Source of the DNA: Bacillaceae bacterium
GTDB lineage: Bacteria; Bacillota; Bacilli; JACDOE01
Length of the DNA stretch: 64,000 bases
NCBI GenBank assembly: GCA_017656255.1
Contig: JACDOE010000001.1
Span: 747,205-811,204 of the forward strand
Reading direction: 5' to 3'
A program made the translations under genes and the position numbers. Under the pieces are notes generated by a model that worked only from the letters and a program-made list of their open reading frames with translations, was not told where the DNA came from and ran no database searches. Position 1 is the first letter of the stretch. Each line of letters opens with the position of its first letter. Shown here piece after piece: positions 52,958 through 55,907 of the stretch.

Positions 52958-53512
52958 CTATTCAGATAGAATATAAAAACTGATACTGGTATAACGGTAA
53001 TTTAATGTTTTATGCTTTTCCAGATTTCCGACTCTGTCCGGCAATGTGACAGCGGCATCATGTTCGGCAATCACAGTACCGTCTTCCTTCAGAAGACCGT
53101 GATCCGATATGAAATTCAGCTGTGCTTCAATCTTTTGTTCGGCATAAGGCGGATCCAGAAAAATAAGATCGAAGGCCAGTTCCCTTTTACGTAATGCACG
53201 CAGGGCACGGTCGGCATCATTAACATAAACTTCAGATTTATCCATCAAGCCGGTGGCCTTCAAATTTTTCTTCACAATATCGGCCGCTTTTCGATCTGCG
53301 TCAACAAATAAGGCATGGTCCATGCCCCGGCTGAGGGCTTCAATTCCCAGACTTCCCGTTCCGGCATACAGATCCAGCACGCGTCCGCCCTCAAAAAAGG
53401 GGCCGATCACGTTAAAAACGGCTTCCTTCACTTTATCAGAAGTAGGCCTGGTCGACATGCCTGGAACAGAATCCAGGCGCATCCCTTTTTTGTCACCTGC
53501 TATAATTCGCAC
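52958..53512 (-). CDS. rsmD: 16S rRNA (guanine966-N2)-methyltransferase RsmD
   Basis: The 184-residue Rossmann methyltransferase has RIIAGDKKGMRL at the N terminus, SAM-binding LDLYAGTGSLGIEALSRG (about 45-62) and the catalytic DPPY motif (IFLDPPYAEQ). GTG start after AAGGTGA. Equivalent to ylbH of B. subtilis. The region upstream holds a plus-strand RNA unit. Confidence 0.96.
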   Translation of the reverse strand: MRIIAGDKKGMRLDSVPGMSTRPTSDKVKEAVFNVIGPFFEGGRVLDLYAGTGSLGIEALSRGMDHALFVDADRKAADIVKKNLKATGLMDKSEVYVNDADRALRALRKRELAFDLIFLDPPYAEQKIEAQLNFISDHGLLKEDGTVIAEHDAAVTLPDRVGNLEKHKTLNYRYTSISFYILSE

Positions 53513-53578
53513 AGAGGATCACCTTGTGAAAATATTTTGAATATCCAAGCCTATTACATAGTAACACAAACGAAGGGG

Positions 53579-53653
53579 ATGGTAAACTTGCGCAAAAAAC
53601 GAAAAAAATTAATTGAAAGATGTATATTTTGTGATGGGACGGGACATGAATAA
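53579..53653 (+). CDS. 24-residue CxxC microprotein (candidate)
   Basis: A short plus-strand ORF at the 5' part of the sRNA locus: MVNLRKKRKKLIERC then IFCDGTGHE. The basic N-terminal half and the CxxCxGTG motif, like one DnaJ zinc-knuckle repeat, do not look random. The start may be ATG 53579, with GGGG directly before it, or TTG 53588, nine bases after GGGG. It could be a small zinc-binding peptide or simply chance coding in an RNA gene. Confidence 0.35.
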   Translation: MVNLRKKRKKLIERCIFCDGTGHE

Positions 53654-53774
53654 TAGTAGCAGCACCCCATAAGGTGCTGTGGACAACCGCGGAGAAGACT
53701 TACGTTTCCCCATAAGCTCTTCCTCCGGTTTCTCCTCTCCCATTTTTGTGTGAGTCTGTTTCGACAGGCTCACG

Positions 53775-53803
53775 CCGCAGGGAAAAAACCCTGCGGTTTT
53801 TTT
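53775..53803 (+). terminator. Terminator of the rsmD-recG intergenic RNA
   Basis: CCGCAGGG-AAAAAA-CCCTGCGG followed by seven T on the plus strand. On the minus strand the stem has no T run after it, so it serves only the plus-strand transcript. Confidence 0.9.
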
Positions 53804-53846
53804 ATGTTTTTTGTCGGTTTCTGCGATAACCCGGGAAATAGTCACG

Positions 53847-55907
53847 TTAATCCAGTATCTTATTTTCAAAAATACCACGTGATTTAAGGTAATTGTTCAG
53901 GGGCAGATACTCCGGATCGGTCCAGAAATCCGGCGCCTGGACCAGCTCTGAAGCTTCCTGCCTGGCAACCTCCAGGGCTTTGTAATCCCTGGTAATATCA
54001 GCGATTTTAAAATCGGGAAGCCCGCTCTGTTTGGTGCCGAAGAAATCACCTGGACCCCGCAGTTGCAGGTCTCTTCGGGATACTTCAAAGCCGTCCGTGG
54101 TTTCCGTCATGACTCTCATCCGTTCTTTCCCTTCTTCCGTGGATGGATCAGCGATCAGAATACAATAAGCCTGATCCTGTCCTCTGCCCACTCGACCTCT
54201 CAACTGATGAAGTTGAGCCAGACCGAACCGTTCCGCATCATAGATCACCATCACCGTGGCATTGGGGACGTTGACCCCAACTTCGACCACCGTGGTGGAT
54301 ACGAGAATTTTAACCCGATTGGCGGCGAAGGCTTCCATGACCTGTTCCTTGTCGGATTGGTTCAACCTGCCGTGCAGGAGGCCCACCTGGTGTTGCGGAA
54401 AAAATTCCGTTAGCCGGGCATGGATATCGATAGCATTCTGGACATCCAGCTTGTCCGATTCTTCGATCAGCGGACAGATGACATATGCCTGCCTGCCCTT
54501 GTTTACCTCTTTTTCAATAAACGCCACTACACGATCAAACATATCCGGGCGAACCCAGTAGGTTTCAACCGGCTTTCGACCTTCCGGCATCTGATCGATG
54601 GTGGAAACGTCCATATCTCCGAAAGCGGTGATGGCAAGGGTCCTGGGAATGGGAGTCGCTGTCATAAAAAGCACATCCGGGTGAAGCCCCTTTTCCCGTA
54701 AAATACGACGCTGTTCTACGCCGAAACGATGCTGTTCATCCGTAATAACCAGCCCCAGATTATGAAAATAGACATCCTTCTGGATTAAAGCATGGGTCCC
54801 CACGATGACATCGATAAAGCCCATCTGCAGTTGACCCAGTATATCCTGACGCTGCCGGGCCGTCAGGCGCCCGGATAAAAGAGCGACTTCAATACCGTGG
54901 GGAGTCAGCAGTTCTTTCAACGATTGCACATGCTGCTCGGCCAGTATTTCTGTGGGCACCATCAAGGCTCCCTGATAACCGGCTTTAACCGAGGCATAAA
55001 GAGCAATGGCGGCGACCACAGTTTTGCCGGATCCCACATCTCCCTGTAGCAGTCGATTCATCGCGGACGGCGCTTTCAGATCATCCAGGATTTCTTTGAC
55101 CACCCTTTTCTGTGCCTCTGTCAGGGAAAAAGGCAGTTCTGAGACAAATCGGCGGACCGCATCCATCGGGATCGGTTGTGCGGCGCCTTTCGTTTCTTTC
55201 TTGGTGATGTAACGATAGGACTGCATTTTCAGTTGAAACAAAAACAGTTCTTCAAAGGCCAGCCGTCTTCTCGCCTGTTTTCCCCTGGCAGTGTCAGTCG
55301 GAAAGTGAATTTCCCGGATGGCTTCTTTTCGCGGCATGAGTTTGTATTTTTGCATGAGTGAAGTGGGCAGAATTTCCTCGATAGCCTGTCCATACTGGTC
55401 AAAAGCCCGGGTAATCCAGTTACGGATCTGCCGGGAAGAGATGGAGCCGGTTGATGAATAAACCGGCTGTATCGTTTCTTCCAGTTCACTTTTCGCTTTG
55501 TCGCCAATATGATGTTCGGTAACCGTCAGATGCATCCGTCTCCGGTCCCATTTTCCGGTCAACAGGATTTCTCTGCCGGTTTGCAGTTGTTTTTTTAAAA
55601 AGTGACGATTAAACCAGACAGCCGTAAAGACGATGCCGTCAGCCATCACTCTGACGGCGAGACGGGACTTCTTTTTCCCGTAAAAACGGATACTGGGTTG
55701 CGAATGGATCACGCCCTTAACGGTGATTTTCTCGCCGTCAGCTGCCTGGTGAAGGTCCTTGATCCGGTAATCGTCATACCGGTAAGGATAATACTCGAGC
55801 AGTTCGCCGATGGTTTCAATCCCCATTGTTTTCAAATGCTCAGCCTGTTTCTCCCCCACTCCCTTAATCGCAGTGACAGACTGATTCAATGTATGTTCCA
55901 CCTTCAT
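53847..55907 (-). CDS. recG: ATP-dependent DNA helicase RecG
   Basis: RecG regresses stalled forks and processes branched DNA. The 686-residue protein has the N-terminal wedge/OB domain (about 1-230) and a superfamily 2 helicase core with Walker A LQGDVGSGKTVVAAIAL (about 288-304), DEQH box (VITDEQHRFGV), TATPIPRT, and QLRGRVGRGQ, followed by the RecG signature GPGDFFGTKQSGLPDFKIAD. It starts two bases after the sdaAA stop, so it is coupled with that gene. No convincing ribosome binding site precedes the ATG. Confidence 0.97.
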   Translation of the reverse strand: MKVEHTLNQSVTAIKGVGEKQAEHLKTMGIETIGELLEYYPYRYDDYRIKDLHQAADGEKITVKGVIHSQPSIRFYGKKKSRLAVRVMADGIVFTAVWFNRHFLKKQLQTGREILLTGKWDRRRMHLTVTEHHIGDKAKSELEETIQPVYSSTGSISSRQIRNWITRAFDQYGQAIEEILPTSLMQKYKLMPRKEAIREIHFPTDTARGKQARRRLAFEELFLFQLKMQSYRYITKKETKGAAQPIPMDAVRRFVSELPFSLTEAQKRVVKEILDDLKAPSAMNRLLQGDVGSGKTVVAAIALYASVKAGYQGALMVPTEILAEQHVQSLKELLTPHGIEVALLSGRLTARQRQDILGQLQMGFIDVIVGTHALIQKDVYFHNLGLVITDEQHRFGVEQRRILREKGLHPDVLFMTATPIPRTLAITAFGDMDVSTIDQMPEGRKPVETYWVRPDMFDRVVAFIEKEVNKGRQAYVICPLIEESDKLDVQNAIDIHARLTEFFPQHQVGLLHGRLNQSDKEQVMEAFAANRVKILVSTTVVEVGVNVPNATVMVIYDAERFGLAQLHQLRGRVGRGQDQAYCILIADPSTEEGKERMRVMTETTDGFEVSRRDLQLRGPGDFFGTKQSGLPDFKIADITRDYKALEVARQEASELVQAPDFWTDPEYLPLNNYLKSRGIFENKILD

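Follow-up and report, generated by a model that had tools for sequence, protein, structure and literature searches.

What does the DNA between rsmD and recG encode, from which strand is it read, and what would its product do? The original prediction placed a CsfG-like small RNA on the plus strand at this point of the window (the whole stretch of 64,000 nt that was analysed), on the strength of a plus-strand terminator, three hairpins and two C-rich segments, all of which are indeed present where predicted, between the minus-strand rsmD and recG genes. As a whole, we read the locus as a forespore small RNA gene with a core that masks Shine-Dalgarno sequences, an explanation to which we give a probability of roughly 0.7. 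The main interest of the locus lies in its spread: dozens of families of spore-formers share a 25-nt core with hardly a changed letter, and the core goes together with sigma-G and with rsmD. Bacterial small RNAs are not usually so well conserved.

Position and parts of the locus

The features of the locus, in window coordinates, are the following.
52958–53512, minus strand: rsmD (ylbH), the divergent neighbour of csfG (PF03602, E 6e-57)
53622–53626, plus strand: −35-like box GTATA of sigma-F/sigma-G type (GYATA equally spaced in 140 of 149 relatives)
53645–53652, plus strand: −10-like element CATGAATA, 18 nt past the −35 box (relatives carry CATAATA/CATACTA-type boxes at 17–18 nt)
53659–53804, plus strand: csfG, predicted RNA of about 145 nt (from the reverse-strand match to RF00516, the promoter and terminator positions and the rsmD synteny)
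53659–53680, plus strand: hairpin 1 (GCAGCACC / GGTGCTGT), whose stem varies among relatives with compensatory changes
53687–53728, plus strand: hairpin 2, with C-rich motif 1 in its loop (from the fold and the RF00516 match region)
53705–53711, plus strand: C-rich motif 1, TTTCCCC, which hardly varies in the class alignment A1 and is variable outside the class
53717–53741, plus strand: 25-nt core CTCTTCCTCCGGTTTCTCCTCTCCC (= CUCUUCCUCCGGUUUCUCCUCUCCC), conserved phylum-wide and containing C-rich motif 2
53729–53741, plus strand: C-rich motif 2, TTTCTCCTCTCCC (CRR2), the 3′ half of the core
53750–53773, plus strand: hairpin 3 (GTGAGTCTGT / ACAGGCTCAC), from the fold of the predicted RNA
53774–53804, plus strand: intrinsic terminator, with a hairpin at 53774–53797 and a T-run to 53804 (terminator prediction; relatives)
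53847–55907, minus strand: recG, the convergent neighbour of csfG (RecG domains in Pfam)

The −35-like and −10-like boxes at 53622–53626 and 53645–53652 lead us to expect the 5′ end of the RNA near 53659, so that the start first proposed, at 53570, lies about 90 nt too far upstream. The −35 box is an exact GTATA at the conserved spot, whereas the −10 box, one base off the CATAMTA of relatives, scored only 4/7; the boxes of the relatives are clear. The genome that contains the window has one copy of csfG and a sigma-G gene (513 bits).

A small plus-strand open reading frame, MVNLRKKRKKLIERCIFCDGTGHE (53582–53653), has a CxxCxGxG-like end (..ERCIFCDGTGHE) after a AAGGGGATGG stretch. Overlapping the boxes of the csfG promoter, it was treated as spurious.

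Identity and strand

When all of Rfam was searched against the window, the sole match was RF00516, named 'ylbH leader', on the minus strand at 53687–53805; with 77.2 bits (E 2e-14) it clears the cut-off of 50, and the covariance check proposed for the locus was thus positive. Computation finds the family on the strand opposite to the proposed RNA, and the question is which strand the family belongs to. A B. subtilis study (PMC3574147) reports that northern blots failed to detect the 'ylbH leader', the RNA being made from the reverse strand instead, as the small RNA CsfG. With only the CsfG strand detected there, and with promoter, terminator and G-U asymmetry in agreement, RF00516 is CsfG read backwards. 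In other words, csfG has been filed on the wrong strand in the database. The RF00516 match, the synteny with rsmD and the strand signals in relatives all agree with the identity that was first proposed, and the window locus is almost certainly csfG, the gene of a small RNA known from spore-forming Bacillus. Taken alone, the window element is an ordinary, deep-branching member of the CsfG family.

The strand signals were read from 149 oriented copies, obtained by a pattern scan and a family search. The GYATA box lies 70–110 nt upstream of C-rich motif 1 in the 140 copies counted above, compared with 5.9% of control windows, and is mostly followed after 17–18 nt by a CATAATA-like box. A plus-strand terminator was found in 136 of 142 relatives, versus 5 at the mirrored position on the other strand. 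The plus-strand stems contain 82 G-U and 15 A-C cells, an excess that indicates a plus-strand RNA, since an RNA from the reverse strand would show the opposite. These three signals in relatives support transcription of csfG from the plus strand. The conservation of structure that the original prediction called for was also observed: in an alignment of 47 sequences, which takes in one locus without the 5′ part (L097), 8 of 17 consensus pairs have changed on both sides without loss of pairing, and the C-rich motifs vary little or not at all. The expected synteny likewise holds, with a divergent rsmD adjoining csfG in the window and in relatives.

An alternative is that the element acts in cis as a minus-strand leader of rsmD (ylbH), perhaps as a riboswitch or as a leader peptide (GGAGG-N8-ATGGGGAAACGT...). 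RF00516 is annotated as such a leader and matches the minus strand, which has an SD-like GGAGG ahead of an ATG and folds as well as the plus strand. However, the folding energies of the stretch relative to dinucleotide shuffles (z −4.4 for the plus strand, −4.8 for the minus strand) show both strands folding far better than shuffles, so energy alone cannot pick the strand, and the promoter, terminator and G-U signals, which all point to the plus strand, argue against a 5′ leader on the rsmD strand. In addition, several non-class families have lost the minus-strand ATG (e.g., CCCCAAACTC, CCCCTTTAACTCC). Together with the northern blots, the strand signals led us to reject a minus-strand leader or leader peptide, to which we leave a very slim chance.

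Spread of the core across the phylum

The distribution of csfG was examined in 398 genomes drawn evenly from the phylum. The core CTCTTCCTCCGGTTTCTCCTCTCCC, with at most 3 mismatches and mostly exact, occurs in 167 of them (reversed-pattern control: 3 genomes), and the pattern CCCC-N8-26-TTTCTCCTCTCCC in 157 (reversed pattern: 3 genomes). Only 12 of the 167 carriers belong to the class of the window; the other 155 lie outside it, in about 50 families as counted by eye. One core match (G242) was judged to be due to chance, having 3 mismatches and no rsmD found beside it, and two copies in another genome (G169), each at the end of a contig, are probably a single locus.

To characterize the copies outside the class, 101 loci from 33 families plus the class of L097 were fetched. 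A sigma-F/G-like promoter was found at 84 of these (control windows: 3.6%) and a terminator at 87, versus 23 mirrored, and rsmD was found at 88 loci. In 84 of these it lies upstream in divergent orientation without reaching the core; the remaining four include reading frames extending past the core. The part of the core left unspecified by the first pattern, CTCTTCCTCCGG, is exact in 75 of the 101 loci, and rsmD adjoins the core at 17 of 20 further places. RF00516 scores nine of ten tested non-class loci exactly at the core, at 28–48 bits and hence below the cut-off of 50, and gave no match up to E 0.1 at the tenth; used at its cut-off, it had no match among 20 tested loci. Most sampled copies outside the class are thus found by RF00516 only below the cut-off.

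Several copies stand in unusual surroundings. In one genome of family f59 (G226), the csfG copy next to rsmD (L362) is accompanied by a second one (L363), which has promoter-like boxes of its own and lacks an adjoining rsmD. csfG is also present in an 806-kb Bacillus velezensis record (NZ_CP083716.1:383239-383309) that is listed as a plasmid and may for this reason be a piece of chromosome. In two IMG/VR viral contigs, the csfG core (L314:5939-5962, minus strand; L315:1466-1489, plus strand) lies about 100 nt past the stop codon of a tyrosine integrase (PF00589) and adjoins repeated GCGCACAAAA boxes; csfG is probably a phage attachment site, as tRNA genes are.

In the excerpts of the literature searched, no description was found of the phylum-wide spread with an invariant core, of the short form presented below or of the database cut-off problem. 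The title of the original CsfG paper (Marchais et al. 2011, PMC3218505) contains the words 'highly conserved in endospore formers', so that part of the distribution may be known already.

Link with sporulation

Within the class, 50 of 61 genomes were taken as sigma-G-positive by a match of at least 325 bits. csfG was detected in 46 of these 50 (45 by RF00516, one more by the plus-strand model R1) and in none of the 11 sigma-G-negative genomes (no RF00516 match), giving a Fisher probability of 3e-9 when the relatedness of the genomes is ignored. Neither RF00516 nor R1 detected csfG in four sigma-G-positive genomes of the class, i.e., G015 and three members of family f3 (G025, G044, G059), where a natural loss is possible. 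In the phylum sample, the 25-mer core occurs in 164 of 335 genomes with sigma-G versus 3 of 63 without (Fisher 2e-12, relatedness again ignored), and the three sigma-G-negative carriers are genomes of 61–93% completeness. At this stringency, roughly every second sigma-G-positive genome of the phylum is without the core; csfG is thus widespread in the phylum but not universal, or has diverged in the rest.

A short form and other structural variants

The locus L097 (MAG 'Bacillota bacterium', WSXW01000001.1), where csfG adjoins rsmD-coaD-ylbJ, has the promoter, the C-rich core and the terminator, and is without hairpin 1 and the normal 5′ arm of hairpin 2. It belongs to a separate class of the phylum, in which short forms were found in 7 of 15 genomes, all 7 with sigma-G. 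Throughout the short form (L097, L200–L206), the 5′ arm of hairpin 2 is different or missing and the predicted RNA is about 77 nt long, which makes it a natural minimal version that shows which parts of csfG are dispensable. The stems differ by group, from a plain hairpin in the class of the window to a longer branched stem in families f45 and f78 and almost none in the short form. C-rich motif 2 is on average 75–84% unpaired in the predicted RNAs of three groups, and its middle is predicted to be partly paired in the window RNA. Both in the short form and in family f59, the core is kept while the surrounding stems change.

In family f59 (L221–L226), C-rich motif 1 (CCCTCCCCCATGA) has its complement upstream, in TCATGGGGAGGG, and would pair there with GGGGAGG. 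Motif 1 should thus be hidden in a long-range stem in this family, with motif 2 alone free.

Proposed mechanism and alternatives

From these observations, we infer that csfG is transcribed in the forespore of this organism and represses translation by pairing with Shine-Dalgarno sequences. RNA polymerase with sigma-F or sigma-G would start near 53659 and terminate at about 53804, giving an RNA in which variable hairpins frame an invariant C/U-rich core, the 3′ half of which is predicted to be mostly unpaired. Acting in trans, the core would base-pair with the purine-rich Shine-Dalgarno regions of chosen forespore mRNAs and thereby block their translation. The simplest reading of the core, by analogy with RoxS (PMC4409812), is that it would act as antisense to Shine-Dalgarno sites, and we consider repression by such pairing somewhat probable. 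A translated core (ATGAGCTCTTCCTCC... in some families) was also considered and rejected: conservation of the sequence extends to every third position, and an ATG is missing in the class, so the core is not coding.

Allowing up to 2 mismatches, the complement of the 13-nt CRR2 occurs at 177 sites in the own genome, compared with 150 for the reversed pattern, which is no clear enrichment. Sites near start codons include those of lutA-like (L154), ilvA-like (L158), UDP-sugar dehydrogenase-like (L153) and aminotransferase-like (L166) genes, named by eye from sequence, with minus-strand sites left aside, and to be taken as leads only. To our knowledge, no CsfG target is known in B. subtilis. Disruption of csfG in that organism caused no obvious sporulation defect, as stated in PMC9147052.

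A further point against the proposed mechanism is that the near-exact conservation of 25 nt exceeds what pairing with degenerate Shine-Dalgarno sequences needs. Conservation of this kind would be accounted for by a single, nearly invariant partner, and the core could be antisense to 16S rRNA (AAACCGGAGGAAG, h40 region), acting on forespore ribosomes or rRNA. Indeed, in 7 of the 8 genomes read, CTTCCTCCGGTTT of the core (window 53719–53731) can pair with 13 nt of 16S rRNA without a single mismatch, a length reached by only 11 of 2000 dinucleotide shuffles. However, this match was noticed after the fact, and its complement contains an SD-like GGAGG, which makes a chance similarity more likely. 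The 16S rRNA of one genome (G432) reads CTGG while its core stays CCGG, leaving only a wobble; cores of Paenibacillus type have a fixed mismatch (CTTCGTCC versus the same 16S); and another genome (G010) is without CTCCGG altogether. The h40-region site also lies within a folded part of the ribosome. Covariation between 16S rRNA and core was not seen among the 8 of 30 chosen genomes with a readable 16S site, a weak test, as none of the 8 has a CCAG or CCAA core. Overall, we regard an antisense to 16S rRNA as highly unlikely. A broader proposal, which we judge distinctly unlikely, makes CsfG a phylum-ancestral sporulation RNA with a core that would pair with a universal target (16S rRNA or SD sites at large), quieting translation generally as the forespore enters dormancy.

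Alternatively, the core may be mainly a binding site for a protein, either Hfq or another forespore RNA-binding protein, which CsfG would titrate. A core that is near-exact while the stems vary would fit such a site, and PMC3574147 reports that CsfG co-purifies with Hfq in B. subtilis. The same study, however, describes only a modest effect of an hfq deletion on the level of CsfG, and the analogous C-rich anti-SD motifs of RoxS act via base pairing according to PMC4409812. Protein titration is considered unlikely, and Shine-Dalgarno pairing remains the preferred reading. Whichever partner the core has, its conservation gives a comparative handle on the old question of what CsfG does and names the residues to mutate.

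Comparison with known systems

The closest known system is CsfG of B. subtilis, which resembles the window RNA in being divergent from rsmD/ylbH, in its strand, in hairpins framing two C-rich motifs, in the terminator and the sigma-F/G-type −35 box, and in its occurrence in spore-formers. In contrast, the other neighbour of the predicted window RNA is recG, that in B. subtilis is ylbG, and the −10 box of the window is degenerate. The 'ylbH leader' of RF00516 is the same sequence element with most of the same helices (77 bits), whereas in Rfam it is a leader acting in cis, placed on the other strand and given a 50-bit cut-off that omits the ten tested non-class relatives. RoxS (RsaE) and FsrA are likewise Gram-positive small RNAs whose C-rich regions are predicted to be single-stranded, and RoxS pairs with mRNAs through such regions, as PMC4409812 and PMC8216469 state. 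In the window RNA, too, C-rich regions are predicted to be unpaired and could bind Shine-Dalgarno sequences; it would work like RoxS and FsrA, with no claim of descent, and would differ from them in regulation, their regulators being ResDE and Fur.
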